Under the pieces are notes generated by a model. That model saw nothing but the letters and a program-made list of their open reading frames with translations. It ran no database searches and was not told the origin of the DNA. Positions 8,783 through 40,034 of a DNA stretch of 64,000 nucleotides are shown piece by piece; within the stretch, counting starts at the first letter, position 1; each line of letters opens with the position of its first letter. The stretch comes from Blautia faecicola. GTDB taxonomy: Bacteria > Bacillota > Clostridia > Lachnospirales > Lachnospiraceae. Position numbers and translations under genes: made by a program. Location: the NCBI RefSeq assembly GCF_004123145.1, contig NZ_SDKC01000001.1, positions 27,501 to 91,500 of the forward strand, written 5' to 3'.

Positions 8783-10126
8783 ATGTTTCGGAAAATATTG
8801 ATTGCAAACAGAGGAGAGATCGCGGTGCGGATCATCCGTGCCTGCAGAGAGATGGGAATCGCTACGGTAGCAGTTTATTCGGAGGCAGACCGGGAAGCAC
8901 TGCATACCCAGCTGGCAGATGAGGCTGTTTGTATCGGACCGGCAGCGGCGACAGACAGTTATCTGAATATGGAGCAGATTCTGAGTGCATGTATCGCAAC
9001 AAAAGCGGATGCGATACATCCTGGATTTGGTTTTTTGTCAGAGAACAGCCGGTTTGTGGAAATGTGTGAAAAATGTAATATTACGTTCATCGGACCGACT
9101 GCGGAGATGATGGACAAGATGGGAAATAAATCGCAGGCAAGGTTGACAATGATAGAAGCCGGTGTTCCGGTGGTTCCGGGAACAAAAGAACCGGTCTATG
9201 ACGCAAAACGGGGAGCAGCTATGGCAGAAGACATAGGATACCCGGTGATGATCAAGGCATCTTTCGGAGGCGGTGGAAAAGGGATGCGGATTGCCTTCGG
9301 ACCGGACGACTTTGAGGAGAACTTTCAGGTAGCCCAGTTAGAGTCAGTACGTGGATTCGGAGATAACACCATGTATATCGAAAAATATGTACAGGAACCG
9401 AGACATATAGAGTTTCAGATCATGGCAGATAAGTTTGGAAATGTTGTGCAGTTCGGAGAACGGGACTGTTCGATCCAGAGAAATCATCAGAAGATGATCG
9501 AAGAATCTCCCAGTGTGGCACTGACACCGGAACTTCGCAGACGGATGGGTGATGCGGCAGTGCGTGCAGCAAAGGCTGTACATTACGAAAGTGCCGGTAC
9601 CATTGAATTTTTACTGGATAAGGATAAAAATTTTTATTTTATGGAAATGAATACACGGATCCAGGTGGAACATCCGGTGACAGAAATGGTTTCCGGCGTG
9701 GATCTGATGAAAGAGATGATCCGGGTGGCAGCAGGGGAACCACTCTCAGTAAAACAGGAAGATATTCACCTGCAGGGACATGCGATGGAATGCAGAATCA
9801 ATGCAGAGGATCCTGCTCATCATTTTCGGCCGTGTCCGGGAGTCATCGAAGCAATCCATCTGCCTGGTGGAAATGGTGTACGGATCGATACGGCAGCCTA
9901 TAACGGGTATGAGATTCCGCCATTTTATGATTCTATGATAGCGAAAGTAATTGTGCATGGAAGAACCAGACAGGAGGCCATCGATAAGATGCGCAGTACG
10001 CTGGGAGAACTGATCATAGATGGTGTGACAACCAACGTGGATTTTCAGTATGAGATATTAGATAATGAGGATTTTCAGGCGGGAGAGATCACAACGGATT
10101 TTATCCCGATGCATTTTAATCTGTAG
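8783..10126 (+). CDS. accC: biotin carboxylase subunit of acetyl-CoA carboxylase
   Basis: AccC carboxylates biotin on AccB using ATP and bicarbonate. The 447-residue ATP-grasp enzyme begins [17 protein letters not shown]. It contains the glycine-rich ATP loop [11 protein letters not shown] and the active-site region [16 protein letters not shown]. The ATG at 8783 follows AGGAG, which overlaps the fabZ stop; a longer in-frame reading from 8765 is less likely. Length is typical of stand-alone AccC. Confidence 0.97.
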
Positions 10127-25609: not shown

Positions 25610-25921
25610 TTATTTTTTAGAGAGAGCCAGTATAATAGCTGTTAAATGAGCAAGGGTCTCTTTATCTATTTTAGTCAATGCTTCCAATAATTGCCGTGTA
25701 GTATCCGGCGATTCATTGTCATAATCAAAAAATTCTTTTGGAGTAATTCCCAAATATTCACAGATGTAGAAAAAAACTGTCATAGAAGGTAAATTATGTC
25801 CGTTTTCAATATTGTTGATGTACCCTGCATTTTGTCCAAGTGAAAGACTCATATCTCTGGCAGAGGCTCCTTTTTCCTGTCGAAGAGCACTAAGTCGTTT
25901 GGCAAAGTCTTCTTCTTGCAT
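25610..25921 (-). CDS. XRE-family helix-turn-helix regulator
   Basis: A 103-residue protein with an N-terminal Cro/CI helix-turn-helix at about residues 7-62 (KRLSALRQEKG...GYINNIENGHNLPSM). A short helical C-terminal part may dimerise. It is divergent from the PP2C-kinase operon across a 378-base AT-rich gap that holds repeated TATCCGA motifs, so it may control that operon or itself. The RBS GGAGGT lies 12 bases before the ATG. No effector domain is visible. Confidence 0.85.
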   Translation of the reverse strand: MQEEDFAKRLSALRQEKGASARDMSLSLGQNAGYINNIENGHNLPSMTVFFYICEYLGITPKEFFDYDNESPDTTRQLLEALTKIDKETLAHLTAIILALSKK

Positions 25922-26299
25922 ATCAGTGTATCACCTCCATACATAACCCAAATATAAATATAGCATTTAATATGACAGATATCCGATTGAAGAAGTAAAT
26001 ATCCGAATATTAGAAGCAAGTAGCTATATTTTACACCATACAAAAACTTAAATGTCAGATTTGACACGACATTGATAGTATTATCATTTATTAAACAGGA
26101 TATTCGGAAAGGGTTAATAAATATAAAAAATAAATAAAATTTACCTGTCGGATAAAAGCATGGGAAAATCCTTAAAGATATAATGCTTAATCTGATATAA
26201 TTTAAATAATAATTGATTAAACATGATAATATAAAGAAGTCGAAACAGATACCTGAATATAGAAGAAACAGGAGAAAGGAAGATACAAAGGATAAGAAT
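25922..26299. promoter_or_regulatory. divergent control region of XRE gene and PP2C-kinase operon
   Basis: This AT-rich interval contains ATATCCGA at 25980-25987 and 26000-26007. The inverted form TCGGA occurs in GATATTCGG at about 26099-26107 and in GTCGGATA at about 26147-26154. TATAAT boxes lie at 26179-26184 and 26196-26201. The repeated TATCCGA element is a candidate operator for the adjacent XRE regulator. No protein gene is seen in it. Confidence 0.5.
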
Positions 26300-27088
26300 A
26301 TGAGATATCTTATGGCAGATCATACGGATGTAGGGATCAAAAAAAAGACAAATCAGGATTCTTACATGATAAAAGAAGCACAGACAAAACTTGGAAGAGT
26401 ATTTTTCTGTGTTTTGTGTGATGGTATGGGCGGATTGGCAAACGGAGAATTAGCCAGTGCCGCCGTGATACGTGCGATGGAGCAATGGTTTGAGACAGAT
26501 TTTCCTCAGATACTCCGGCAGGTCACGGATGTTGAGGAGATTCTGGAAAAAGTAAAAAATAACTGGTATGGAACTGCGAATGTACTGAATCTGCAGCTGG
26601 CACAGTATGTGGAAGGAACCGGTAAGCGGATGGGGACTACGATTGTTGCGCTGCTCATGATAAAAAATGAATATTTTATCATGAATGTTGGAGATTCCAG
26701 GGCGTATGCGATCAGCAATCAGGTATATCAGCTGACGAAAGATCAGAGCCTGGTGCAGCAGCAGATTGATCTGGGACGGGTTCGTCCGGAGGATGCGGAA
26801 AGACATCCGCAGAGAAATGTTTTGTTACAGTGTATCGGAGCATCGGAGGAGGTTCTTCCTGATTTTTACCGGGGAACTGTTTTGCCGGGAACCCTTTTCC
26901 TTTTGTGCAGTGATGGATTCCGGCATGAGATCAGTGAACAGGAGTTATTTATGCAGTTAAATCCTTCCGGATTGGTGAATGAGGAAAGAATGAAAGAACG
27001 GCTTGTATATCTGACAGAACTGGTGAAGTCCAGAAGGGAGATGGATAATATCTCTGCTGTTGCGATCAAGGCTGTGCAGGAGGGGTGA
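26300..27088 (+). CDS. PP2C-family protein Ser/Thr phosphatase
   Basis: A 262-residue metal-dependent phosphatase, the partner of the kinase encoded next. Metal-binding motifs are seen at DVGIKKKTNQDS (residues 10-21), CDGMGGLANGE (Asp41), SDGFRHEIS and the C-terminal DNISAVAI. The ATG at 26300 (MRYLMADHT) is preceded by AAAGGA. An earlier in-frame codon at 26213 would add a lysine/arginine-rich leader not seen in homologues. Its stop overlaps the RBS of the kinase gene, so the pair is translationally coupled. Confidence 0.92.
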   Translation: MRYLMADHTDVGIKKKTNQDSYMIKEAQTKLGRVFFCVLCDGMGGLANGELASAAVIRAMEQWFETDFPQILRQVTDVEEILEKVKNNWYGTANVLNLQLAQYVEGTGKRMGTTIVALLMIKNEYFIMNVGDSRAYAISNQVYQLTKDQSLVQQQIDLGRVRPEDAERHPQRNVLLQCIGASEEVLPDFYRGTVLPGTLFLLCSDGFRHEISEQELFMQLNPSGLVNEERMKERLVYLTELVKSRREMDNISAVAIKAVQEG

Positions 27089-27090
27089 AG

Positions 27091-28890
27091 ATGCTGGAAA
27101 TAGGATCCGTCATAGATGGAAAATACAAGATACTGAACCAGATCGGTCAGGGTGGAATGAGTGTTGTATATCTGGCATTGAATGAACGCGCCAATAAGAC
27201 ATGGGCGATCAAAGAGGTCAGAAAAGACGGTGTACAGGATTTTGCCACAGTCAAACAGGGACTGATCGCGGAAACCGATACGTTAAAGAAACTGAATCAC
27301 AAATATTTGCCAAGTATCATCGATGTTATTGATGATGAGGATACGTTCCTTATTGTTATGGACTATATTGAGGGAAAATCTCTGAATAAAGTCCTGAAAG
27401 AAAGCATGGAACAGACCGGACTGCCGATCGGGATTGAAGATGTGCTCTCCTGGGGGATTCAGCTGTGCGATGTGCTGAATTACCTGCATACGAGGGAACA
27501 GCCGATTGTGTACCGTGACCTGAAACCATCGAACATTATGTTGCGGCCGAACGGTGAGATCACACTGATCGATTTTGGTACTGCAAGAGAATTTAAAATA
27601 GAAAATATAGAAGATACCACGAGTCTCGGAACGCCCGGTTATGCGGCACCGGAACAGTATGGAAGTCAGAATCACAAGGGAAAAGCCCGTCCACAGAGCG
27701 ACATTTACTGTCTGGGAGCAACACTGCATCATCTGATTACCGGACGGAACCCGGCGGAATCGCCGTTTCATTTTCTGCCGATCACGCAGTGCCGGACAAC
27801 GCTTCTGGAGGAGACGCCGAGAGAATTCCGCAATGAACTGCTCGGACTTGAAATGATTCTTACCAAATGTACACAGCAGGAGCCGGAACAGCGGTATCAG
27901 AACTGTGCACAGCTGCAATATGATCTGGAACACCCGGAAGAACTGGGACTGCCGTACAGACGGAAACTGAAAAACAAGATGCTTGCATTTTCTGCAAGTC
28001 TGGCACTGGCGGCTGTGCTGGGAGCAGGATCTCTGACCGGCGCGGCACTGGCAAAGAACACAGAGACATCCGGGTACGACTACTATGTGGAGAGCGCACA
28101 GACAGCATCGACACAGGAGAAACTCATCTGTTATAAAAAAGCGATTGCGCTGAATCCGGAAGCGGAAGATGCGTGGCTGGGACTGGTGAATGCCGTCGGG
28201 GAAGACAATACATTCACCTCCGAGGAGGAAAGCTACATTCTTTCTATATTAAGTTCCCGGGACAACGGAAGAACGAAAGACAATAAAACACTGTTTCAGA
28301 AAAATGAGGCGGGATATGTACGGTTTGCCTATAACATGGGCATGCTCTATTACTATACGGAAGGAACCGGACAGAACAAAGCATCTGCCGGAGGTTGGTT
28401 TGATATCGTAAGCAAGGCAGATCTGAACAGTCTGGATCTCGGCGAGGATGAAGATAAGAAGACCGCATGGAAGACGAGATCGGATATTCTGGGTAAGATC
28501 AGTGCGTATAACAGTAAGATCGGACAGACAAACCAGGCGGGGGACGCGCAGGTTTCCTATAAAGATTACTGGGAAGATCTGATGGCTCTGATGAGTGATG
28601 ATATCGCGGGACAGGATAATGTGATCACAGAACTTCGTCTGTACAACGAGATCGTATATCAGATTTGTACCCATTATGATGCATTCCGGGAAGCAGGTCT
28701 TACACAGAATAAGATGCAAGAAGCACTTGACCGGATCACGGAAGCGGTAAATGCGGCGGACGTGACAGACAATCCGGTGGCAAAGGAACTGAAAGAAAAT
28801 ATTCTGGATGCTGCCGTTCTCGGAGAAAAGCAGATTCAGGCAATGTTTGCGGCAAATGCGGTAACACCTTCTGAAGGAGGTGAGGAATGA
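27091..28890 (+). CDS. transmembrane Ser/Thr protein kinase with non-PASTA outer domain
   Basis: A 599-residue Hanks-type kinase. The kinase domain spans residues 13-285, with the glycine loop IGQGGMSVVY (18-27), Lys41 in AIKEV, the catalytic Asp143 in YRDLKPSN and the metal-binding Asp161 in DFGTAR. A single membrane segment at about 298-321 is followed by 275 outer residues. These are helical and TPR-like, beginning CYKKAIALNPEAEDAWLGL, in place of the PASTA repeats of the usual cell-wall kinases. ATG 27091 is preferred to GTG 27085 because AGGAGG lies 6 bases before it. It would phosphorylate cytoplasmic targets, probably including the FHA partners. Confidence 0.92.
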   Translation: MLEIGSVIDGKYKILNQIGQGGMSVVYLALNERANKTWAIKEVRKDGVQDFATVKQGLIAETDTLKKLNHKYLPSIIDVIDDEDTFLIVMDYIEGKSLNKVLKESMEQTGLPIGIEDVLSWGIQLCDVLNYLHTREQPIVYRDLKPSNIMLRPNGEITLIDFGTAREFKIENIEDTTSLGTPGYAAPEQYGSQNHKGKARPQSDIYCLGATLHHLITGRNPAESPFHFLPITQCRTTLLEETPREFRNELLGLEMILTKCTQQEPEQRYQNCAQLQYDLEHPEELGLPYRRKLKNKMLAFSASLALAAVLGAGSLTGAALAKNTETSGYDYYVESAQTASTQEKLICYKKAIALNPEAEDAWLGLVNAVGEDNTFTSEEESYILSILSSRDNGRTKDNKTLFQKNEAGYVRFAYNMGMLYYYTEGTGQNKASAGGWFDIVSKADLNSLDLGEDEDKKTAWKTRSDILGKISAYNSKIGQTNQAGDAQVSYKDYWEDLMALMSDDIAGQDNVITELRLYNEIVYQICTHYDAFREAGLTQNKMQEALDRITEAVNAADVTDNPVAKELKENILDAAVLGEKQIQAMFAANAVTPSEGGEE

Positions 28891-29447
28891 TGACAGTAGT
28901 AGCAACAGCTGTGCAGGGATTTGAAGAGAAATACGTCTTTTACAGAAATATTTTTCTGTACTGCGGAATTGCGGCACTGGTTTTTTTGGCAATTGCCATC
29001 ATTTTATTCTTCGCATTGCGAATTCCGCAGGTCTTCGGTGAACTGACTGGAAGAACTGCGCGGAAAGCAGTGGAGGAAATGGTCAGCGGGCAGACACCGA
29101 CCGTGAGGAAAAAGACCGCTAAAAAAACAAAAAGAAAGACAGACACAAAGCGGCCGGAAATCGAAGCCGGGCAGAAAAAACAGATCTACAGCGATCTGAT
29201 CGGAGAAAATGACACACCGGTCCGGCTGGTCACACACGATGACATACCAACGCCAACTCTGATGCCGATGAGAGAAGAAGAAACAGAGATGCTGGACAGA
29301 ACTGTGGCAGAAGGCGAGACAGAAGTACTCGAAACGGTTTCTTTAGAAGTGGGCGAACCGGAGACGGATGTATTACACCATGATGTGGACTTCGTGGTGA
29401 TACGGAGTCTCGTGGAGATTCATACGGATGAGGTAATCGGGATATGA
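28887..29447 (+). CDS. single-pass membrane protein of the kinase locus
   Basis: A 186-residue protein with one transmembrane helix at about residues 22-45. A strongly basic segment follows (KKTAKKTKRKTDTK, about 72-86), then an acidic C-terminal half rich in Glu, Thr and Val. That half contains several threonines next to acidic residues (for example EEETEML, EGETEVLETV, EPETDVL), which resemble phospho-acceptor sites for FHA partners. The start overlaps the kinase stop. I do not recognise a family. A role as a kinase substrate or adaptor is an inference from context and composition. Confidence 0.7.
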   Translation: MMTVVATAVQGFEEKYVFYRNIFLYCGIAALVFLAIAIILFFALRIPQVFGELTGRTARKAVEEMVSGQTPTVRKKTAKKTKRKTDTKRPEIEAGQKKQIYSDLIGENDTPVRLVTHDDIPTPTLMPMREEETEMLDRTVAEGETEVLETVSLEVGEPETDVLHHDVDFVVIRSLVEIHTDEVIGI

Positions 29448-29932
29448 GAAAGAGAAAACGGAAAACTTTAAAATATATGAGATTATCGCTCCTTTGTTTC
29501 GGACTTCATGCCTGCTCCCTTTTTCTGGAGCCGTTTGCAATCAATGGAGAAAATGAAATGACGACTGCGGGGTATGCACTTGGAGGAATCTTCTGGGCAT
29601 CGCTTCTGGCGGGGACAGTTCTTTTTGAAATCTGTCGGAGGAACCTGTCAGGAGATGCCGGTTACCGGGAGTGGAAACAGAAGAAGGTTCCGGGAATCTT
29701 TGGATTCTTTCGAACCAAGGCAGCACGGATTGTGGATCCGATTCTGTTACTGTCAATGGTCATCACCATCGTGAACAATCTGACGGGAAACATCCCGGAG
29801 GGGCTTCTTCTGGTGGTTCTGGCTGTTATGGTATTCACTTTTTATCTGCACATGATGGTAAATGGCAGAGTTTACAGATATATGACACTAAGTGAAAGGA
29901 AGGAAAAGAAAAGTGAAAACAAAGAAAATTAA
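29444..29932 (+). CDS. polytopic membrane protein of the kinase locus
   Basis: A 162-residue protein with about four predicted membrane segments (near residues 13-30, 42-62, 98-112 and 118-138) and charged ends, basic at the N-terminus and Lys/Glu-rich at the C-terminus. It overlaps the preceding gene by 4 bases, and its end overlaps the start region of the giant surface protein gene, so these genes are tightly coupled. I do not recognise the family. Confidence 0.7.
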   Translation: MRKRKRKTLKYMRLSLLCFGLHACSLFLEPFAINGENEMTTAGYALGGIFWASLLAGTVLFEICRRNLSGDAGYREWKQKKVPGIFGFFRTKAARIVDPILLLSMVITIVNNLTGNIPEGLLLVVLAVMVFTFYLHMMVNGRVYRYMTLSERKEKKSENKEN

Positions 29933-32900
29933 GAGGGTACTGGCATTTTTCCTGGCAGTGGTCTTCGCCTTTTCTACCTGTATGACGGCAAGTCCGTATA
30001 CGGTACAGGCAACGGAGGAGCCGAAGCTTTCGGTGAATGTAACCCTGGGGGATGGTGTATCGACAGAGGATCTGATTTTTGATGGTCTGAATCTGGAATT
30101 TACGGACAGAAATGATCAGGAAATAGGAAGTATCAGTATTGCGAAAGAAGATCTGGGAACAACAAAAACTACAGAGATTTTGTATTCTAAAATTTCTGAT
30201 ATCAGCAATATTATAATCACGGATACAAAACAATTATATACTGTGTCTACATCAGAAGCGGATTTTGATGATGAAACGCATACAATGGCGCTGGAAATTC
30301 AGAGTTTCAGTGTGAATACAAGTGAGAACAGCATCTCAGGAGCAGACAGTGTATATGCAGAGGATACAAATTCCTTTTCTGTACAGGGAACATGGGGATC
30401 ATATATTGACGAATGGGTAATTGAAGATAACACTGCAAAAGCGGAATTTTCAGATGGTAAGAATACGAATACAAGCTGTGTAATTAAAGCAGCAAATGGA
30501 AATGAAACAGCATTTACCCTTATAGCCAAAGCAAAGGGAAATGAGATTGCAAGAAAACAGATAGATGTTATCCGGAAAGACACAAATCTTGAGGTGACGT
30601 GTAGTAATGAGTTACAGTCATGGGGCACTCCGGTAAAAGTTACTTTTAAACTGACTTCTAACGGACAGGCAGTTGCGGGAAAACAGATTCAATATCAGTA
30701 TATAGACGGAAAGAACAATCAGATAACAGGAACGTGCCCGGAACTGACAAATGAAGAAGGTGTGACAACTGCGGAAATTACCTTAAATAGTTATCAGAGC
30801 ACAGTTGAGGTGACCGGAAGTTTTGCAGGAGATGAGGTATATAAAGACTGTAAGAATTCTGATACATATAGGCCGAATAAGGAAGAAGGAACTATGGAGT
30901 TTGACAGAGAAAACAGTCCTGTTGAACAGTTAGAACTGACTTATGGAACGGATGCTACAGAACTTACGATCAAATTACAACATAAAACGGATAATATTGA
31001 GGAACCTTTTAGTTCTATTAATATTAACTATACAGCGGATTCAAATATCAGTGTAACTTCGAATCCGGAGGAGAGAACACTGACAATTACACCGCTTAAA
31101 GTTTCAGATGAAGAGATTCCGGTAACAATTGATGCAGAAACAGAAAGTTATACGTTTACAAAAACAATCTATGTAAAAGTAAAACCGTATCCACTAGCTG
31201 TGAAAGAAGGAAGTGTTCATGTTTTTGCGCCTGGAAAAGCAAATCTGGAAAATGCGGTTGAAGATGTGAAAATCTACGATGGCACATCAACGGTAGATGT
31301 AAAAGCAACGTTAGTAGATGCACAAGTAAAAGGTATAACTCCGACAACGGAAACAAAAGACGAGATTAAATTATTTCAGGAGATTGTTTTTGGAGGCTAT
31401 GACAGCAAACTGAAAAATGTTCAGGGTGAGGAAGAGAAACAGAATATGACGTTTGCTCCGAAAAATCTCAGTACGGTATCAAATTTGCGGGAAGATCTGA
31501 AAACAAATTATAAGATCGAGGAAGTGGAAATGGAGGTTCCGCTGACGATTCAGAAACGCACACTGAAGCTTGGTGTGCGAGGTGTAAGCAGAGGATTCCG
31601 TGATCTGAAATATGTGTATGAAAACGAAGAGGAGACAGAGGGGAAAGATCTGAAAGACCTGAATCTGGTTTTTGCAACCGGTTTTGTGAACGGACAGGAT
31701 GAAAACACATTAAAGGTAGAAGGTTTTAAGTTTCCGAAGGTAGTGGATACAACAGCTACGGATCTGACAGAGGAAAATGTAAAGGAAAAGGATACGGCAG
31801 AATACGGTAAACATACAGGCGCTTTAGTGTTGCAGGAAGAAGATCAGATAACAAATCCGACAAACAACTACAAATTTGATCTGACAGCAACCGGAACACT
31901 GGAAATTACAGGAGAAAAAGACGCTGCTGGGTATCTGTCTGTTGATAACATTAATAGTACCCATGCATATGAAGCAGGTGGAAAGCGTTACTATGGAAAG
32001 AATGAAAATGGAAAGAATGCAACGGTTCAGTTTTCTAAAACTGGTGGATACAACAGGGTTTACTGGGTCAATGGAGACGATAAAACGGATGTCACGGATT
32101 CCGGTCTGGAAATGAAGGAAAATAACGACATCAACCGTTCTTTTTATCTGACAAAAGAGGATGAAAGTGGAAAGGTTCTTGCAAAAACGCAGGACTTTAA
32201 ACTTCAATTTATATACGATGCAGAGCCTCCAGAATGTGGCATTACGTTTGATAAAGATACAAAAAATGTAGTTCGTAACATAGAACAAGCAGTTACTTTT
32301 GGATTTTATAAAAAAGATACAATAGAAGCAAATGTGACACTCAGTGATACGCAATCAGGTGTGAATGAAATGTCTTACCTTGTAGTAAATACTTCTGAGG
32401 ATAAAAATCACTATTGGGAATTGTTGACAACGGAAGAGGACTATGAAACTGCGCTAAGTAAAGTGAAGTTCGAGAGTGGGGAAGGATTAAAAACATCTGG
32501 AAAAGAAAACTCATGGACAATTAAAAATATTGGAAAATTGAAAGGGGGAGAGGACCTCGAATGTAACAATTATATTGTCTTTGTAAAAGCAGAAGATAAT
32601 GTAGGAAATGTAAAAATCTACGGATCTAACGGTGTCGTTCTGGAAAATAACACACAAGATATTTCAGTAACCTACAAAGAGACCCCAGAGAAAAATGATG
32701 ATGGTAAAAATGGCAAATATGAGGATAAAGATGTGGTCTATTATACGGGAAATGTCACTTTGCATATGCAAGCATATGAAAGTGGATCTGTTTACTCAGG
32801 ACTCACACAGATGGGATATCAGGTGTCTAATATCGATGGAAAAGGTAACAAGACCACAAACGAATTCGTTTCCTATCCAGAAGATAAACAATTTCCTAAG

Positions 32901-35900
32901 AATGTAACACTCGAAAAGCTGAACAATTATCGCAAAATCGAAGAGGATCTGTACTTTGAAAGTGATAAAGATAGCTCTCAGGTGATTACGGTTATTGCAC
33001 CAGCCAGTGAGACGAAAGATAATGCAGGAAATACTATGGAAAACGATGCAGTCCATACCCTGGTTATTGATTCTAAGCCACCGACAGTTGAAGCCCAATA
33101 TACACAGAAAAATCTGAATGAAAATAACGAACATTGTTTCCGAAATGAAAAATATGCAAACAGCGATGTGACTTATACCGTCACAGTGACGGAACGCTTT
33201 TTAACAGACATAAAAGTTTGCATTAACGGAAAAGCTTATTCGTTTGATGAACTGAAGAAAAATAAAGAGAGTCTCGGTATCAAAGAAATAACAAAAGATG
33301 AACTGCCGGATATTACCAAAACAACGGATCAGACAAAGTATGATTTTAGTATTGTATTTAATAAAGATGGTAAATATAAAGTAAAGACAATTGCAACGGA
33401 TGCAGCAGGGAATACGGGGTATGATGCTGGAGACATTGATGAAAATAATAACATCGGATTCGAATTTATCATCGACACCGTAGCACCAACCCTTGATCTT
33501 ACTTACACAGCCAAACAAAACAACACAGAAACCCAGCTTGCACTGGATCCGAAATATGACTGGTTTGCAGCGAACAATGCAACAGCAGGTGACAACGGTA
33601 CGATCGGTATTACGGCTGTTCTGATCGAAGAAAACTTCTCAGCTGAATTTGCAGACATCTCTGTGGAAGTGACAGACAGTACCGGGGCTGCAGTTGATAT
33701 TACAGATTATAAAAATGCTGTAACGAAGGCGGTCAAAACACAGGAAAGATGGACAGAGAGCAATACGGATGAGGGCAGAAAATATACGCTCACACTTCCG
33801 GAGATCGCAGTGGATGCAAATTATAAAATCACCTATACCTGCACAGACCTGGCGGGTAATTCGTTAAAACCGATTACGCATCATGTGACACTGGACCGTA
33901 AGAATCCGGAAGGAGAAGTAAAAGCAGAAGATCTGGAGAATAACGGATCATCGGCGCAGATCTGGAACAGTTTAATAGAAACCATTACCTTTGGATACTT
34001 TGGAAAGAACAATGTGCGGGTATCTATGGCAAGCCAGGATGCGACTTCCGGAGTGGAATCCACACAGTATCTGAAATCAGCAGATGGACTGACAAGAGAA
34101 GAACTGGAAAACCGCACGGACTGGACTTCGTATGTTTCCGGTCTGTCGTATGCGGCAAACCAGCACCTTGTAGTATATGAAAAAGTTACTGACAAAGTGG
34201 GCAATACAGAATACTTCAGTACCGATGGAATCATTGTTGACAATACCAGTCCGGTACCGGTTGTTACGATCACACCGACCAGTCCGGGATGGGGAAAAGG
34301 CGTTTACAGCGCAGGCGATCATCCGGGATTCAGTATTCGTGTGGAAGATCCGATTGTAAATGACGCGTATGCCGGATTGAAAAAGATCACCTATCGGATC
34401 GAGAACGGAACGACCGGATATGTGGAAAGCAATACACTGGCAGATGAAAATACCGGTTTATCCAAGGCGGCACACCAGAAAGTATGGACCGGTCAGGTGT
34501 CGATTGATCCGAATATGTTCTATTCCAATGATGTGAAAGTCAGTGTGTACGCGGAAGACTGGTCAGCGAACAGCGTGACATCACAGCCGCAAACGCTCAA
34601 AGTTGATAACAAAGCACCAATTGTAAGTTTCAGCTTTGATAAGAGCGATATACATAATGGAAAATATTACAAAAACGATAAGACACTGACGATCACGGTA
34701 GATGAGAGAAACTTCGATGAGTCCTATCTGCCGAGAGTAACTTCCACCACGGGAGGCGGATACAGTATCAGCGGATGGAGCCATAACGGAGAGCTCCATA
34801 CCGCAACCGTTACGTTCTCCGGTGACAGTGATTATACGGTAAGTTATGACTGTTCCGATCTTGCAGGAAACAAATCCAACACCGAAAATCTGGAAGAATT
34901 TACGGTGGATAAGACCGTTCCGGTTATCAAAGTTTCTTATAACAATAACAGTGCGCAGAACGGCAATTACTACAAAGAGGCAAGAACAGCGACCATTACC
35001 GTAACCGAACACAACTTTGACCCGTCAAAGATTACCGTGTCCACGACGGCTTCCGCAGGCGGTGCACCTTCCATCGGCGGATGGGCAAACAGTGGAGATA
35101 CACATACCGCCAATGTGGTATTTAACCATGATGCAGATTATACCTTTACCGTCAGCGGACTGGATCTTGCGGACAACAAAGCCGCAGATTATGCACAGGA
35201 TAAATTTACTGTGGATCTGAAGAATCCGGAAGTGAAGATCACCGGTGTAAAAGACAAATCGGCAAACAACGGTATGGTAGCCCCGCGGATCAGTATCTCT
35301 GATACGAACTTTATTGCAAGTGGCGTAAAGATCACACTGAAGGGTGTCAATAAAGGAGAAATCAAGATTGATTCTCTGGCAAGTATCTCAAGCAGTGCAA
35401 CCGGCATGAATGTCATCTTTAAGGATTTCCCGGAGGGTATGGATGATATCTATACGCTGACTGCGAAAGCAACCGATAAAGCAGGAAATGAGACAAAATC
35501 TTCGATCACATTCTCTGTAAACCGTGACGGTTCTACCTATGAACTTGGCAGCGGTACAAAAGCGCTGGTTGACAAGAAATATACAAACAAACCGCAGGAT
35601 CTGGAAATCACGGAGATTAACGTAGATGATCTGACAACGATCGAGATCACCTACAGTCTGAATGGAAAAATCGTTACCCTGAAAGAAGGCGAAGATTACA
35701 CCATCACAAAATCCGGCGAAGAAGGACAGTGGAAGAAATATCTGTACCGGATCAAAGCTTCTTGTTTTGAAGAGGAAGGCAATTATGTGATCAATATCTA
35801 CTCTGAAGATGCGGCACATAACTCTACCACCAACAAGACAAAAGCAAAGACGATTGCATTTACCGTAGATAAGACCGCGCCGACGATGGTTGTATCCAAT

Positions 35901-36314
35901 CTGACCGACAGAGGCCGTTATAAAGAAAACGTGCATGAGTTCACCCTGAATGTGAAAGATAATATCTTCCTGGCTTATGTGGAAGTATATCTGGACGGGG
36001 AACTGTTCAAACGTTTTGAGGAAGATGAGATTGCGCAGCTGAACGGAGAACTTCCGGTAGATATTGCCAGCAGCAACCAGTATCAGACCATCGAACTGGT
36101 ATCGTGTGACAAAGCCGGTAATATCTCGAAAGAGGTATACGATCCGGAGACCAATGCACAGGTGCCGGCTTCTTACCGGGTACTGGTAACACAGAACAGC
36201 TTTGTACAGTTTATCAACAACACCCCGTTACTGGTCAGCGTGATCGTGATCATCGTTGCTATCGCAGGGCTGATCGTTGTACTGGTGAAACGGAAGAAAG
36301 ACAAAGAGAAATAA
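29913..36314 (+). CDS. giant membrane-anchored surface protein with Ig-like repeats
   Basis: A protein of about 2133 residues. A Sec signal peptide covers about residues 1-33 (basic KTKKIKR, hydrophobic core, likely cut after VQA). A C-terminal membrane helix (PLLVSVIVIIVAIAGLIVVL) ends in KRKKDKEK, so it is anchored in the membrane; no LPXTG is present. The body is a series of bacterial Ig-like domains. At least eight boundaries of the type VDKTAP/IDTVAP occur, together with DLAGN/DKAGN turns and YYK...NFD repeats in the C-terminal third. GTG 29913 is chosen because GGAAGG lies 9 bases before it. The 5' half is markedly more AT-rich than the 3' half. An adhesin or wall-spanning receptor is likely. 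Confidence 0.88.
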   Translation: MKTKKIKRVLAFFLAVVFAFSTCMTASPYTVQATEEPKLSVNVTLGDGVSTEDLIFDGLNLEFTDRNDQEIGSISIAKEDLGTTKTTEILYSKISDISNIIITDTKQLYTVSTSEADFDDETHTMALEIQSFSVNTSENSISGADSVYAEDTNSFSVQGTWGSYIDEWVIEDNTAKAEFSDGKNTNTSCVIKAANGNETAFTLIAKAKGNEIARKQIDVIRKDTNLEVTCSNELQSWGTPVKVTFKLTSNGQAVAGKQIQYQYIDGKNNQITGTCPELTNEEGVTTAEITLNSYQSTVEVTGSFAGDEVYKDCKNSDTYRPNKEEGTMEFDRENSPVEQLELTYGTDATELTIKLQHKTDNIEEPFSSININYTADSNISVTSNPEERTLTITPLKVSDEEIPVTIDAETESYTFTKTIYVKVKPYPLAVKEGSVHVFAPGKANLENAVEDVKIYDGTSTVDVKATLVDAQVKGITPTTETKDEIKLFQEIVFGGYDSKLKNVQGEEEKQNMTFAPKNLSTVSNLREDLKTNYKIEEVEMEVPLTIQKRTLKLGVRGVSRGFRDLKYVYENEEETEGKDLKDLNLVFATGFVNGQDENTLKVEGFKFPKVVDTTATDLTEENVKEKDTAEYGKHTGALVLQEEDQITNPTNNYKFDLTATGTLEITGEKDAAGYLSVDNINSTHAYEAGGKRYYGKNENGKNATVQFSKTGGYNRVYWVNGDDKTDVTDSGLEMKENNDINRSFYLTKEDESGKVLAKTQDFKLQFIYDAEPPECGITFDKDTKNVVRNIEQAVTFGFYKKDTIEANVTLSDTQSGVNEMSYLVVNTSEDKNHYWELLTTEEDYETALSKVKFESGEGLKTSGKENSWTIKNIGKLKGGEDLECNNYIVFVKAEDNVGNVKIYGSNGVVLENNTQDISVTYKETPEKNDDGKNGKYEDKDVVYYTGNVTLHMQAYESGSVYSGLTQMGYQVSNIDGKGNKTTNEFVSYPEDKQFPKNVTLEKLNNYRKIEEDLYFESDKDSSQVITVIAPASETKDNAGNTMENDAVHTLVIDSKPPTVEAQYTQKNLNENNEHCFRNEKYANSDVTYTVTVTERFLTDIKVCINGKAYSFDELKKNKESLGIKEITKDELPDITKTTDQTKYDFSIVFNKDGKYKVKTIATDAAGNTGYDAGDIDENNNIGFEFIIDTVAPTLDLTYTAKQNNTETQLALDPKYDWFAANNATAGDNGTIGITAVLIEENFSAEFADISVEVTDSTGAAVDITDYKNAVTKAVKTQERWTESNTDEGRKYTLTLPEIAVDANYKITYTCTDLAGNSLKPITHHVTLDRKNPEGEVKAEDLENNGSSAQIWNSLIETITFGYFGKNNVRVSMASQDATSGVESTQYLKSADGLTREELENRTDWTSYVSGLSYAANQHLVVYEKVTDKVGNTEYFSTDGIIVDNTSPVPVVTITPTSPGWGKGVYSAGDHPGFSIRVEDPIVNDAYAGLKKITYRIENGTTGYVESNTLADENTGLSKAAHQKVWTGQVSIDPNMFYSNDVKVSVYAEDWSANSVTSQPQTLKVDNKAPIVSFSFDKSDIHNGKYYKNDKTLTITVDERNFDESYLPRVTSTTGGGYSISGWSHNGELHTATVTFSGDSDYTVSYDCSDLAGNKSNTENLEEFTVDKTVPVIKVSYNNNSAQNGNYYKEARTATITVTEHNFDPSKITVSTTASAGGAPSIGGWANSGDTHTANVVFNHDADYTFTVSGLDLADNKAADYAQDKFTVDLKNPEVKITGVKDKSANNGMVAPRISISDTNFIASGVKITLKGVNKGEIKIDSLASISSSATGMNVIFKDFPEGMDDIYTLTAKATDKAGNETKSSITFSVNRDGSTYELGSGTKALVDKKYTNKPQDLEITEINVDDLTTIEITYSLNGKIVTLKEGEDYTITKSGEEGQWKKYLYRIKASCFEEEGNYVINIYSEDAAHNSTTNKTKAKTIAFTVDKTAPTMVVSNLTDRGRYKENVHEFTLNVKDNIFLAYVEVYLDGELFKRFEEDEIAQLNGELPVDIASSNQYQTIELVSCDKAGNISKEVYDPETNAQVPASYRVLVTQNSFVQFINNTPLLVSVIVIIVAIAGLIVVLVKRKKDKEK

Positions 36315-36339
36315 AACATCGCAGATAAAAGCAAAGAGG

Positions 36340-36369
36340 CGGGCAGGAGCATGAAAATGCCCCTGCCCG
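36340..36369 (+). other. strong hairpin between surface protein and FHA genes
   Basis: CGGGCAGGAGCAT pairs with ATGCCCCTGCCCG around GAAA, just before the next RBS. No T-run follows. It could reduce read-through or protect the long upstream mRNA. Confidence 0.65.
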
Positions 36370-36390
36370 TTATGAAAAAGGAGACAGCTT

Positions 36391-37089
36391 ATGATCCAGG
36401 AAGACAGAGCATTATGGAAATATATAGTATTTGGACTATTAACCTGTGGAATCTATCCGTTGATCTGGTACTATTCTCTGGGCAATCGTCTGGCAGAAAA
36501 TGCACCGCGCTACGGACTGAATTTTCAGGAAAACGGAATGACCGTTCTTATGTGGCATATCTTCGGTATGCTCTTATGCGGACTTGGCGCTTATATCGCC
36601 ATGAATATTCTGATTAAAAATACGAATGCAATGGCAAAAGCGTATAACGGTGGTCAGAAAAGGGAAGCGGATCAGATAGAAAGCGTTACAGAGGTTCCGG
36701 TAAGAACCGTGTACCAGCAGAACAGTTATACGGAACGCGAAATCACGATGCTGTCTATGGAACAGGCACAAAAGCAGGCAGCGTCACAGATGCCGCCGAG
36801 AGGGGTGCTTTACTTTGTACAGACACAGCAGAGTGTTACCGTAGACAAAGACGAGTTCCGGATTGGTAAAAATGCGGGCATGTCTGATTATGTGATCACC
36901 AACAACAGTTCTGTAAGCCGCCAGCATGCGGTAATCCAGCGAAGAAACGGACAGTTCTTTGTGACAGATCTCGGATCAACGAATGGAACTTTTGTCAACG
37001 AGAAGAGAATCAGCGGTACGGTACAGTTACAGGATGGTGATAACATTCGATACGTGGATGTGATCAGTGTATTCAATATTGTGAGATAG
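36391..37089 (+). CDS. membrane protein with C-terminal FHA domain
   Basis: A 232-residue protein. The N-terminal DUF4234-like part has two membrane helices (about 9-29 and 50-72, with LLTCGIYPLIWYY). A linker of about 75 residues follows, then an FHA domain from about 150 to the end. The phosphothreonine-binding features are visible: FRIGKN, NSSVSRQHAVI and DLGSTNGTFVN. It would dock threonine-phosphorylated proteins at the membrane, presumably targets of the kinase at 27091. The ATG follows AAAAAGGAGACAGCTT. Confidence 0.88.
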   Translation: MIQEDRALWKYIVFGLLTCGIYPLIWYYSLGNRLAENAPRYGLNFQENGMTVLMWHIFGMLLCGLGAYIAMNILIKNTNAMAKAYNGGQKREADQIESVTEVPVRTVYQQNSYTEREITMLSMEQAQKQAASQMPPRGVLYFVQTQQSVTVDKDEFRIGKNAGMSDYVITNNSSVSRQHAVIQRRNGQFFVTDLGSTNGTFVNEKRISGTVQLQDGDNIRYVDVISVFNIVR

Positions 37090-37100
37090 AGGAAATAAAA

Positions 37101-37124
37101 GTGAAAATTAAAGTAATTACTAAG
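37101..37124 (+). pseudogene. 5' stub of an interrupted gene (probable FHA protein start)
   Basis: After GAGGAAATAAAA a GTG opens a frame reading MKIKVITK, which runs directly into the left end of the IS at 37125 and stops within it. The spacing to the upstream FHA gene is that of an operon. It is probably the original start of the FHA gene whose 3' part is at 39009. Confidence 0.4.
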
Positions 37125-38699
37125 ACTTCCCATACCTAAAATGGGATTCGCACCTTGAAAATTCAATATTTGAGCTAACAAAATAGTGATTTATGCCGCT
37201 ACAGCCTTGGAATGGAGTGCAGTTCGCAGATATTCAGGCAGTCTTGCTTCAAAATCAGCAGTAAAAGCAGCCAGCTGTTCATCGCTGAGCTTTAAGATTT
37301 CCTGAAGGCTTGCCATGAAAGCATTCATAAGGATACCAAGTGACCTGCTGAAAGTAATGTCTGCCATTTCATCAACAAGGAAGAAGAACAATTCACCAAG
37401 AGTCCGTTGATCTTCATTTTGGCGTTGTTCCATTGCTAGTAACGTATATCGGGTAAACACAATCGCTACATGAGCTGTCAGTGCATCATAGGATAAACTA
37501 TGGCATTCCCCAATCAGGTTCAGCATAGATTTACAGGTTTTGAAGAAAACTTCGATCTGCCAGCGTTTTCCATAAATGCGGATGATTTCTTTCTCTGAAA
37601 GAGTCGTATCTGTACAGATAAAAGCAAGCCAGTCTTTGCGGTTCGCTTTGTTCCTTACGCATACGATTTTTGCCGGAATTGGATTTTCCTTTCCTACCAT
37701 GCCATCAACAGAAAGCAGATATTTTGATCTGCCACGACGCTTTTTATTCCGGGAATAGATTTCTTTGATATTTAGCTGCTCACCATAGTACGAATATTTG
37801 ATCCGGCTACTTTTCTTAATCATGGCAATCACATCCATACACTTTGAATGAATGGCTGTGATCTGTGCCGGGTTGGAAAACCAGGAATCAAACAGGACAT
37901 AGTCTGCATTCAGTCCTGTACTGAGGGCTGTATCCAGTAATGTCATCATTGCCTCTGGTGCTTTTGTCTGAGCAAGCTTACGTCTTTTTCCTGCAAGTGT
38001 TCTGTGATCAAAATCCTTTACCGGGCCAATGATATTAGTATCCTTTGCGGATGCTAACAGACAGCTGTTCACAGGAATTAGTGTATTTCCATCACTCCAG
38101 CTTAAAGTAAGCATCCGGAAGCCCTTTTTAAAATGCATATCTGTGTGGTCAAAAACTTTTGAACCCAGTTCTGTTTTCTTACAGCTGGTACGGTTGAAAA
38201 GACTGTCATCAATAATGAAGACATTTTTTCTTTCCTGATTTGTCAGATCACGAATGTCATTGTTGACGATGTCGGCTGCAAGAAGAGAAGTAAAACGGAG
38301 CCAGTTTGTTTTTGCAGAATTAAGGAAACGGTAAAAAGTGTTCTTAGAAAAATCTTCCTTAAAAGAGCCGGTTCGTTGCTGCATATACATACTTCTTCCG
38401 ACAAAAATGTTGCTGAGTTTGTAACGAAGCAGAGAAACAGGTGAAATACCTTTTTCTTTCATTCCGTTGCATTTGGCAAGAAGTTTGCCGACATGATGTT
38501 TGGAAAAAAATCTCTGAACACAGTCAATTAAGTTGTTCTCATCGAAATGGTTTTGTAGTATACTGGACATGGCATAAATCTCCTTTGTAAAGATGGTTTC
38601 TAGTCAACTCCATTATACCAAAGTGAACAGGTTTATGCCTTTTTATTGGCTGAAATATTGAATTTTCAAGGTTCAACACACCATATCGGTGTGGGAAGT
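37125..38699 (-). mobile_element. IS4-family insertion sequence
   Basis: The ends match in inverted orientation: ACTTCCCATACC at 37125 and ACTTCCCACACC on the other strand at 38699, then ACCTTGAAAATTCAATATTT subterminally at both ends. Between these conserved blocks each end has a different small hairpin (CCCAT/ATGGG on the left, CACACC/GGTGTG on the right). The element is about 1575 bp and carries one transposase gene on the minus strand. I could not find a clear direct repeat at the flanks. Confidence 0.88.
37191..38570 (-). CDS. IS4-family DDE transposase
   Basis: A 459-residue transposase. An N-terminal DNA-binding region (about 1-100) precedes the DDE domain. The first Asp lies in VFIIDDSLFNR, the second in YVLFDSWFSNP, and the Glu in the family motif YGKRWQIEVFFKTCK. 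This YxxRWxIExFFK signature marks the IS4/IS10-type superfamily. The ATG at 38570 has AAAGGAG upstream. The frame is intact, so the element may still be active. Confidence 0.93.
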   Translation of the reverse strand: MSSILQNHFDENNLIDCVQRFFSKHHVGKLLAKCNGMKEKGISPVSLLRYKLSNIFVGRSMYMQQRTGSFKEDFSKNTFYRFLNSAKTNWLRFTSLLAADIVNNDIRDLTNQERKNVFIIDDSLFNRTSCKKTELGSKVFDHTDMHFKKGFRMLTLSWSDGNTLIPVNSCLLASAKDTNIIGPVKDFDHRTLAGKRRKLAQTKAPEAMMTLLDTALSTGLNADYVLFDSWFSNPAQITAIHSKCMDVIAMIKKSSRIKYSYYGEQLNIKEIYSRNKKRRGRSKYLLSVDGMVGKENPIPAKIVCVRNKANRKDWLAFICTDTTLSEKEIIRIYGKRWQIEVFFKTCKSMLNLIGECHSLSYDALTAHVAIVFTRYTLLAMEQRQNEDQRTLGELFFFLVDEMADITFSRSLGILMNAFMASLQEILKLSDEQLAAFTADFEARLPEYLRTALHSKAVAA

Positions 38700-39008
38700 T
38701 TTAGTTAGTAAGTAAGAAAAAATAATAACTGCTATAGTGGTCATGCTGCTAATTGCGATAGGCTTAGAACTATAGTTGATTGTCAGCAGAGATTAACAAC
38801 TTTTTTGATTTTTATGGAAGTGCTTTGCTTAAAATTAGGACAGACTGCACTGTTTGACTGCCAATTTAGAATCATGGGTCAAATGATTGCGCTTAGGCAT
38901 GGAAGGAATGATATATAGGCTTTTGAAAAAGTAATGACATTAAGCAAAGCGGAAATAATCGACAATCCAGAGCCGGCGTCCAGAATAATTGGAGCATTTA
39001 ATTAGTAT
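38700..39008. other. degenerate non-coding interval right of the IS
   Basis: These 309 bases have stops in all plus frames and no recognisable gene, promoter or hairpin. They lie where the missing N-terminal part of the FHA gene would be expected, but I could not recognise a decayed copy of that domain. Confidence 0.5.
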
Positions 39009-40034
39009 GTGACGAAGATCCTGAATTACTTTAACGATACGGAAGGATTTTCACTGACAGGATTTGAAACACTGATCCGCGAACTGAAAAATCAAAGGGT
39101 ACCGGTACAGAATCCGATACCTCCAATGCGGGAGGCTGAGGAACTTCTGACAGTTCCGCTGGTACAGCAGACACCGAAGGTACAGGAGATACCGCCGGTT
39201 CAGCAGGATACGGCATATGATCCGGGAACCACGATGTTGAATGCAGGAGCGGCACCGGCCGGTGGTTATACACAACATTATGTGAATCCGAACCTTACCC
39301 ACAGCCAGAGTTCGATACCGGTATCCGGTGGAAATATTCCAAAAACCTATCCGGGAACAAAACAGGAGGAGTTTGATAATGTGTCACAGCCGGAACAGCA
39401 GAAAGAAGAAGCACCGGTAAAGGAAAAGAAGGGAATTTTCGGAAGAAAAGAAAAAGGAGAGAAACCACAGAAAACAGGACTCTTCGGGAAGAAAGAAAAA
39501 ACCAAGAGTACAGCTGTTTCAAAAGAGGAAACACCGAACAGACCAAAAAGTTTTCATGGGATAGCAATTCCCGGTTCTGATGTGGTTCCACAACAGGAAA
39601 ATACGGCAACAACGGCGACAGCGATTCCGGCGCAGAATGTATCCATTCCGGTTCATGCAGCGCCGATTCAGAATTTTGGTGATACGGTAGATCTGCAATC
39701 CTATACAAATGCCACACAGCACACAGCAGCTCCGGCAGCGATGAAGAATCCGTGTCTGATCCGCAAGGAAACCAGGGAACAGTTCTTTCTGAAAAAAGAG
39801 GTGAACAGGGTAGGGCGAAGCCGTGAAAATGTGGATGTTTATATTACGGATAATACAAGTATCGGACGGGTACATGCGGTCTTATATCTGCGAAACGGCC
39901 GCTTATATGTGGAAGATCAGAACTCCAGAAATGGAACTTTCTTAAATGGGCATCGGGTGATCGGACAAGAAGAACTTGTGCCGGGTGCGAGTCTGCGTCT
40001 GAGCAATGAAGAGTTTAAGATTACATTTTTATAA
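39009..40034 (+). CDS. FHA-domain protein, probably N-terminally truncated
   Basis: The open frame codes 341 residues. It contains a Pro/Gln-rich linker, a basic stretch with repeated GIFGRKEK/GLFGKKEK, and a C-terminal FHA domain at about 262-341 with NRVGRSRENVDVYI, TSIGRVHAVLYL and DQNSRNGTFLNG. The first 30 residues (ILNYFNDTEGFSLTGFETL) resemble the end of the DUF6382 domain that normally precedes such FHA regions. The frame begins at a GTG without an RBS, 6 bases after a stop. It is probably the 3' part of a gene broken by the nearby IS and may not be translated. Confidence 0.65.
   Translation: MTKILNYFNDTEGFSLTGFETLIRELKNQRVPVQNPIPPMREAEELLTVPLVQQTPKVQEIPPVQQDTAYDPGTTMLNAGAAPAGGYTQHYVNPNLTHSQSSIPVSGGNIPKTYPGTKQEEFDNVSQPEQQKEEAPVKEKKGIFGRKEKGEKPQKTGLFGKKEKTKSTAVSKEETPNRPKSFHGIAIPGSDVVPQQENTATTATAIPAQNVSIPVHAAPIQNFGDTVDLQSYTNATQHTAAPAAMKNPCLIRKETREQFFLKKEVNRVGRSRENVDVYITDNTSIGRVHAVLYLRNGRLYVEDQNSRNGTFLNGHRVIGQEELVPGASLRLSNEEFKITFL

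Follow-up and report, generated by a model that had tools for sequence, protein, structure and literature searches.

The window analysed here, a 64,000-nucleotide stretch of the Blautia faecicola genome (C1:27501-91500; 3.74 Mb in 5 contigs, 99.97% complete), contains a plus-strand operon that encodes a phosphatase, a kinase, two small membrane proteins and a giant surface protein. The first gene (26300..27088) specifies a PP2C/PPM phosphatase (PF13672, PP2C_2, 6.4e-13) with the motifs DGMGG, SDG and DNIS, and the second (27085..28890) a transmembrane Hanks-type Ser/Thr kinase (PF00069, Pkinase, 3.1e-44) with GQGGM, AIKE, YRDLKPSN, DFG and APEQ; all catalytic motifs sought in the two enzymes were found. 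The third gene (28887..29447) encodes a protein that we term H, with a single transmembrane segment and a cytoplasmic tail (alignments, with topology assigned by eye), which we propose to be a phospho-docking adaptor. The fourth (29444..29932) encodes a second membrane protein, TM2, aligned with its homologues and showing about four hydrophobic segments by eye. H has no Pfam match above cut-off and no NCBIfam match, and TM2 matches no family in either database. The last gene (29913..36314, alternative start 29892) encodes a 2,133-residue surface protein built of Ig-like repeats (Pfam Big_3_3, Big_13 and Big_3_4), in which a signal peptide and a C-terminal transmembrane segment with the basic tail KRKKDKEK are visible by eye; alignment indicates that this tail is common to its relatives. 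The first four genes are joined by successive 4-bp overlaps and the giant-protein gene begins within that of TM2, so that reading frames and overlaps match the coupled operon proposed in a preliminary description of this DNA. The divergent regulator gene noted there is equally real: an open reading frame on the minus strand (25610..25921) encodes a 103-residue XRE-type protein (HTH_19/HTH_3, Pfam), which may control the operon. Of the 53 related loci with at least 5 kb of upstream DNA, 14 have an XRE-like gene in the 5 kb before the kinase.

An AlphaFold2 model of the kinase (mean predicted local distance difference test score, pLDDT, 86.0; 68-sequence alignment) contains only helices from residue 287 to residue 587, the transmembrane segment included. 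All 50 of the matches listed for this model in the PDB are kinases, and the extracellular part gained no match of use. Assignment to the PASTA kinases (PrkC/Stk1/PknB) was rejected: NF033483 covers residues 6-288 only and scores 178 of 450 bits, far below cut-off, and Pfam finds no PASTA repeats in the kinase, whose outer part is helical in the model. An anti-phage defence system was also rejected, as PADLOC models matched only generic kinase, PP2C and HTH domains (best match mad6, 4.3e-54; MkoA covers kinase residues 9-521), and neither the two membrane proteins, nor the giant protein, nor the two FHA proteins described below had a PADLOC match at 1e-5. For the giant protein, the N-terminal 820 residues gave a poor model (pLDDT 57.9, 7 sequences) that matched mostly generic Ig chains in the PDB and some adhesin pieces; with such a model and such matches we discarded fold as a guide to function and assign no ligand. 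A sortase-anchored adhesin was dismissed, LPxTG being present in the last 60 residues of none of the 54 giant proteins in the 80-locus set introduced below.

Two FHA genes follow on the plus strand, as the preliminary description had recognized; it had overlooked that an insertion sequence (IS) lies between them and that the second is truncated. The first (FHA1, 36391..37089) encodes an N-terminal DUF4234 domain (PF14018, 1.9e-11) and an FHA domain (PF00498, 1.2e-20). The IS (approximately 37119..38705, minus strand) is present once in the genome, has 65-bp imperfect inverted ends that are 78% alike and encodes a DDE transposase (37191-38570, minus strand; Pfam). A single-copy, stop-interrupted stretch (38706..39008) then runs in frame into the second FHA gene (FHA2, 39009..40034; FHA domain 7.4e-14, Pfam), the first 31 residues of which align to positions 156-186 of the 188-position DUF6382 profile. 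The frame upstream of FHA2 is closed by stops, no clear ribosome-binding site precedes the open reading frame, and longer relatives, such as a 508-residue protein at locus L043, contain DUF6382, there at 14-163. We do not take the IS to be the direct cause of the truncation, since 303 bp of stop-containing sequence separates the two. FHA1 keeps SRxH and NGT and has G-K in place of G-R, like the partner FHA examples that we compared; FHA2 retains G-R, but the S of SRxH is replaced by G. The DUF4234-FHA protein would be the likeliest local reader, the FHA2 gene being damaged. In a congener (G002, locus L055), the PP2C gene at 9165 is immediately preceded by a short piece of an FHA gene, itself behind transposase-like open reading frames (by eye), that is probably what remains of an FHA partner.

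Comparison by blastp of the window proteins with the open reading frames of 21 loci from its own and related genomes revealed that the gene order is shared across several genera; 16 more loci, partly overlapping the first 21, were also compared. For counting, we took the best 80 of 510 confirmed kinase relatives in named genomes, a set selected for likeness to the window kinase. PP2C adjoins the kinase in 70 of these 80 loci, H lies next downstream in 73 and TM2 is present in 23; as the H profile also matches repeats in some FHA proteins, doubly labelled proteins were excluded from H. The giant-protein label, a profile of the Ig tail applied to open reading frames of more than 450 residues, may take in unrelated Ig proteins; on this basis 45 of the 56 loci with at least 8 kb of downstream DNA have a match (42 downstream, 3 upstream, in L100, L102 and L123), and EssC is present in 9 of the 56. 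Where DNA extends for 8 kb or more to either side (41 loci), 33 have a giant-protein match, 6 EssC, 4 Tad genes, 19 a protein joining an HtrA-like protease part to an FHA domain (HtrA-FHA) and 7 a DUF6382-FHA protein. Hosts among the listed loci include [Ruminococcus] torques ATCC 27756, Catenibacillus scindens, Butyrivibrio hungatei, Pseudobutyrivibrio and Faecalicatena orotica. In the culturable C. scindens DSM 106146 (L078) and B. hungatei (L107/L112) the cassette is accompanied by no EssC in the DNA examined. The grouping of genes that the preliminary description had noted is therefore not due to chance: it recurs in dozens of loci, and the homologues are not scattered. TM2 makes a poor family marker, found in only 12 of 397 genomes, in three of them weakly. 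In four Butyrivibrio cassettes (L107, L109, L112 and L119) an open reading frame of about 623 residues stands between H and the giant protein, and a second Ser/Thr kinase gene often lies 3' of the giant protein (L074, L080, L082, L087, L104 and others).

The cassette also occurs on at least one plasmid. A plasmid search with the window DNA gave no match; plasmid unnamed1 of Agathobacter rectalis DFI.5.28 (NZ_CP143948.1, 251,725 bp, L174) encodes an Ig-like protein, PP2C, kinase, an H with two E-T-T-V-L sites and DUF6382-FHA. Genes annotated as WXG100, EsxB and TNT-related lie further downstream, no EssC is annotated within the 25 kb examined, and two genes upstream of the one for the Ig-like protein there is a tetracycline-resistance gene of the ribosomal protection type. 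The B. faecicola genome itself has a second cassette on contig C2 (129,504 bp; L007, L039-L041), with HtrA-FHA, PP2C, kinase, H and a giant protein in two overlapping pieces. It lies about 8 kb from a gene for a TraG-type ATPase, and a Mob_Pre relaxase gene is present on the same contig, as on a conjugative or mobilisable plasmid.

The components at the window resemble those of T7SSe, a subtype of the type VII secretion system (T7SS) defined from the gene neighbourhoods of EssC (Garrett, Higginson and Palmer 2024, PMC11217815). According to the accessible part of that article, T7SSe comprises the kinase TseD, the phosphatase TseF, the single-transmembrane TseH, the large Ig-like TseI, the DUF6382-FHA protein TseJ and TseK, together with the ATPase TseC, the WXG100 proteins TseA and TseA2 and the ubiquitin-like TseB. 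Together with T7SSd and T7SSj it is the nearest described system. The window has both the membrane Ser/Thr kinase, TseD-like, and the PPM phosphatase, TseF-like. Set beside TseH by description (a single transmembrane segment and a short unstructured cytoplasmic region), the window H fits and is TseH/TsdH-like; the giant protein, TseI-like, fits the description of TsdI/TseI as large proteins with a Sec signal, a C-terminal transmembrane segment and Ig-like domains. The make-up, for which the preliminary description knew of no characterized system, is thus not wholly without precedent, given that T7SSe and T7SSd loci contain like components, though by prediction and not by experiment in the part of PMC11217815 available. 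Of TseJ, the window has only the 5'-truncated remnant at 39009-40034. TseK is a further single-transmembrane protein, whereas TM2 has about four hydrophobic segments, and no other candidate was seen; TM2 and the DUF4234-FHA protein are extras relative to T7SSe. No ubiquitin-like TseB was recognized by eye among the open reading frames of the locus, no dedicated search being made. The window locus lacks an EssC-like ATPase gene; the only EssC match in the genome is at C1:650648-655042, 585 kb away. Nor does the locus have a WXG100 gene, the genome's three matches (one below cut-off) lying at C1:655-658 kb. With D, F, H and I present but TseC and WXG100 genes absent, the locus falls outside T7SSe as defined, although it has components in common with that system. 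In the main it corresponds to the half of this recently described subtype that does not itself secrete, without the engine alongside. In one genome (G039, L049/L057), by comparison, a single run contains EssC, YukD- and WXG100-like small open reading frames (by eye), DUF6382-FHA, PP2C, kinase, H, TM2 and the giant protein, nearly the whole T7SSe component list.

The distribution of the kinase and of EssC was examined across 397 genomes of the family, with cut-offs of E<=1e-125 for the kinase and E<=1e-100 for EssC (the two best EssC candidates per genome). The module kinase was found in 72 genomes and EssC in 92; setting aside 14 genomes with shorter kinase matches left 58 kinase genomes, of which 32 also have EssC (in 15 the two genes start within 30 kb of each other on one contig) and 26 have no EssC match. 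The 15 are a lower bound owing to contig breaks, and an EssC weaker than the cut-off would escape. We then examined 20 EssC-less loci from 19 of the 26 genomes (of the other seven, G002, G012 and G184 were represented among the earlier loci, and G351, G352, G361 and G415 were outside the sample). Belonging to many genera, these loci have H in all 20, the giant protein in 16 and PP2C in 15, with all of these and the kinase together in 11. HtrA-FHA occurs in none of the 20 (17 have at least 3 kb of upstream DNA), DUF6382-FHA in 7, of which 5 also have Tad genes, and another FHA in 1. One single-contig genome without an EssC match (G292) has two kinase-H-giant protein sets, one with PP2C. In a kinase tree of 40 rows the window kinase falls in a clade of 7 with 100/100 support, which mixes the EssC-linked G001 and G400 with G252, G002, G153 and G095, all without an EssC match; G400 and G095 are near sisters. 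This mixing within one clade indicates that the linkage to EssC has been gained or lost more than once.

One rival reading is that the cassette belongs to a T7SSe-like system with its engine elsewhere, serving the EssC/WXG100 locus at C1:650-658 kb, 585 kb away; this would be compatible with the docking mechanism set out below. The module kinase and EssC are associated in the family (EssC in 32 of 58 kinase genomes against 60 of 339 others, p 8e-9), and the congener G001 has the cassette beside EssC. The EssC of B. faecicola, however, shares 21-30% identity with the EssC sequences from cassette loci used for comparison, some of them partial, whereas that of G001 shares 41-48% with six of these and 24-39% with the remaining six. 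Diversity among EssC proteins at cassette loci is wide, that of G039 being 32% identical to G001 EssC and 30% to the B. faecicola protein, so that on identity alone the B. faecicola EssC may still be the engine. The T7SS-like locus of B. faecicola (C1:650-661 kb; L006, L072) encodes an EssC with an FHA match, WXG100 proteins and a YukD-like open reading frame (by eye), and it continues with a PP2C and kinase pair of its own, of a different kind. That separate pair and the lack of an EssC match in 26 of the 58 genomes with the kinase, the one-contig G292 with its two sets included, lead us to regard an engine elsewhere as unlikely.

H carries an array of threonine motifs in its tail. FHA domains bind phosphothreonine. 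The pTXXL sequence is a studied ligand of Rad53 FHA2, judging from a title cited in PMC3146460. The window H has three E-T-x-[VM]-L motifs (29280..29375; Thr133, Thr145 and Thr160, by alignment), and its T-x-[VIM]-[LIM] count was reached by 4 of 300 shuffles. We counted motifs in 81 of 84 H candidates, leaving out L085, L143 and L146 (more than 360 residues). In these 81 tails (1,013 Thr), Leu stands at +3 of Thr in 344 of 1,000 cases against 68 expected, an enrichment of 5.0-fold that is specific to threonine (Ser 1.2, Ala 0.4, Asp 0.1). [ED]T..L, where dots are any residue, occurs 133 times against 11.4 in shuffles, and with the last 14 residues removed there are 131 [ED]T..L to 5 [ED]S..L. 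At least one [ED]T..L is present in 57 of the 81 tails and at least one T..L in 79. Tandem DNA repeats underlie the arrays (a 42-bp unit repeated 7.0 times in G002 and a 30-bp unit 6.1 times in [Ruminococcus] torques), which suggests that they grow by tandem duplication. One H (L168, in G292, about 10340) carries repeated T-T-K-L-type sites, a variant spelling of the array. The window tail ends in a segment (29391..29444) distinguished by homologue comparison, with H-T-D-E-V-I close to the end; H[TS]xE lies within the last 16 residues of 45 of the 81 homologues.

The same motif marks the proteins that would write and read such an array. Per 1,000 residues, [ED]T..L occurs 9.8 times in H, 4.0 in HtrA-FHA proteins, 3.9 in DUF6382-FHA proteins and 2.8 in the kinases, against 0.66 in 442 other locus open reading frames, 0.5 in EssC and the giant proteins, 0.16 in PP2C and 0 in TM2. 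The activation loop of the window kinase contains D-T-T-S-L (27613..27627), identical in pattern to the array, and [DE]T..L is present in 75 of the 76 activation loops that a script located among 96 kinase-labelled proteins. In the partner FHA proteins the motif lies mostly 106-127 residues from the C-terminus, ahead of the FHA domain, and at least two copies precede that domain in 30 of 38 HtrA-FHA and 6 of 11 DUF6382-FHA proteins, two kinds that are unrelated at their N-termini. The suggestion in the preliminary description that the 28887 protein might be a phospho-adaptor has thus gained ground, with three Thr-specific sites in the window and up to ten T-x-[VIM]-[LIM] in relatives pointing to such a role. 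T..L sites are fewer where FHA genes are missing (median 3 in 20 FHA-less loci against 4 in 31 FHA loci, p 0.00017), as are [ED]T..L sites (p 0.031), in statistics that ignore kinship; the claim that arrays are longer where there is an FHA gene is therefore a weak one.

On this sequence evidence we propose, with middling confidence, that the locus encodes a multivalent phosphothreonine docking platform for FHA readers, controlled by kinase and phosphatase and housed in a standalone D/F/H/I cassette. The kinase would sense the state of the envelope through its helical extracellular part, undergo autophosphorylation at D-T-T-S-L in its activation loop and phosphorylate the E-T-x-x-L threonines on the cytoplasmic tail of H. 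FHA domains, some of which are pT-x-x-L binders, could then dock on this tail in several copies and so cluster the readers at the membrane, while like sites ahead of the partners' own FHA domain would permit cross-linking or self-inhibition. PP2C would dissolve the cluster. In the window the structure under its control may be the giant Ig protein at the envelope, and in relatives perhaps a T7SS or Tad machine as well. More tentatively, the D/F/H/I set may be no part of a secretion system but an independent, exchangeable signalling platform at the membrane, a multivalent pThr-x-x-Leu array written by the kinase and erased by the phosphatase; it would cluster FHA readers, have its length tuned by tandem duplication and have been taken up separately as a controller by T7SS, Tad pili and lone giant surface proteins.

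Several observations weigh against the docking platform. Of the 41 loci with 8 kb or more of DNA to either side, 18 showed no FHA gene outside EssC. The closed kinase/phosphatase/FHA switch envisaged in the preliminary description is present as a logic in the sequence, but neither FHA gene of the window is of the usual partner type, and FHA2 is truncated. [ED]T..L is absent from 24 of 81 tails and T..L from 2 (L103, L114); pre-FHA sites are absent from 5 of 11 DUF6382-FHA and 2 of 38 HtrA-FHA proteins; long arrays persist in some FHA-less loci (L156, L121); and the second copy in B. faecicola, on contig C2, has one [ED]T..L site. Our counts, moreover, are of sequences and not of independent events.

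The loci without an FHA gene would suit an adhesin operon with an ordinary envelope-sensing kinase, in which T-x-x-L serves for docking of the kinase or as some other linker and FHA domains bind only incidentally. Adhesins and stalks are typically built of Ig-repeat chains, and the PDB matches include adhesin pieces among the generic Ig chains. This explanation seems doubtful, because reading by FHA domains predicts both the threonine-specific Leu at +3 and the recurrence of the doublet in FHA proteins of two unrelated kinds. A T7SS-linked locus in decay, functionless after loss of the FHA partner and engine and arrival of the IS, would accord with the truncated DUF6382-FHA gene, the lack of HtrA-FHA at the window locus, the short FHA piece kept in G002 and the mixed kinase clade, but is improbable, as the reading frames of all five genes in the operon are open, their overlaps, catalytic motifs and E-T-x-x-L sites have been kept, and complete cassettes persist in EssC-less genomes of many genera.

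The docking platform would make the E-T-x-x-L motif, with Thr, hardly ever Ser, in variable number, a testable code for communication between kinase, adaptor and FHA protein in Lachnospiraceae, a common gut family. If the proposal is true, bacteria have here a signalling scaffold whose valency can be tuned, and phosphopeptides offer a direct test of how T7SSe and the Tad loci with FHA genes are regulated. The survey itself shows that genes first reported as parts of a T7SS subtype are often present where a T7SS was not found. The accessible part of PMC11217815, whose search began from EssC, makes no mention of T-x-x-L arrays, HtrA-FHA proteins or EssC-less copies, and we found no description of the E-T-x-x-L array in open-access PMC, where PMC11217815 was the only article among those consulted to describe T7SSe; as far as these searches show, the independence from EssC and the Thr-specific array code are new.

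Three other systems offer comparisons. Tad pilus loci of several genomes have DUF6382-FHA, PP2C, kinase and H behind Tad-type genes, some with a giant protein (labels assigned by eye and by similarity to L042, L043 and L045); no Tad genes were seen among the open reading frames listed around the window locus. Elsewhere in the B. faecicola genome (L008, C1:3360-3376 kb) an FHA protein with a DUF6382-like start lies beside Tad/prepilin-type and rhomboid-like genes (by eye), with no cassette seen, and within the window itself seven tRNA genes are clustered at 2089-2835. The GarA/OdhI/FhaB proteins are soluble regulators in which a phosphorylatable Thr motif, ETTSVF, precedes the FHA domain. The cassette FHA proteins likewise have a Thr motif ahead of the domain, and the window FHA1 matches solved chains that include GarA and OdhI; its matches to the NCBIfam FhaB and OdhI models are far below cut-off. 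In the cassette proteins, by contrast, the domain is joined to a further part, HtrA-like protease, DUF6382 or DUF4234. The third comparison is with the PpkA/PppA/Fha switch of the type VI secretion system, for which the accessible part of PMC3953482 describes, in Agrobacterium, PpkA-dependent phosphorylation of TssL (pThr14) that recruits Fha. There, too, a kinase, a phosphatase and a membrane protein with a cytoplasmic phosphothreonine bring in an FHA protein; but TssL, as described, has one site and belongs to another machine and another envelope, whereas H has several sites in an array of variable length.

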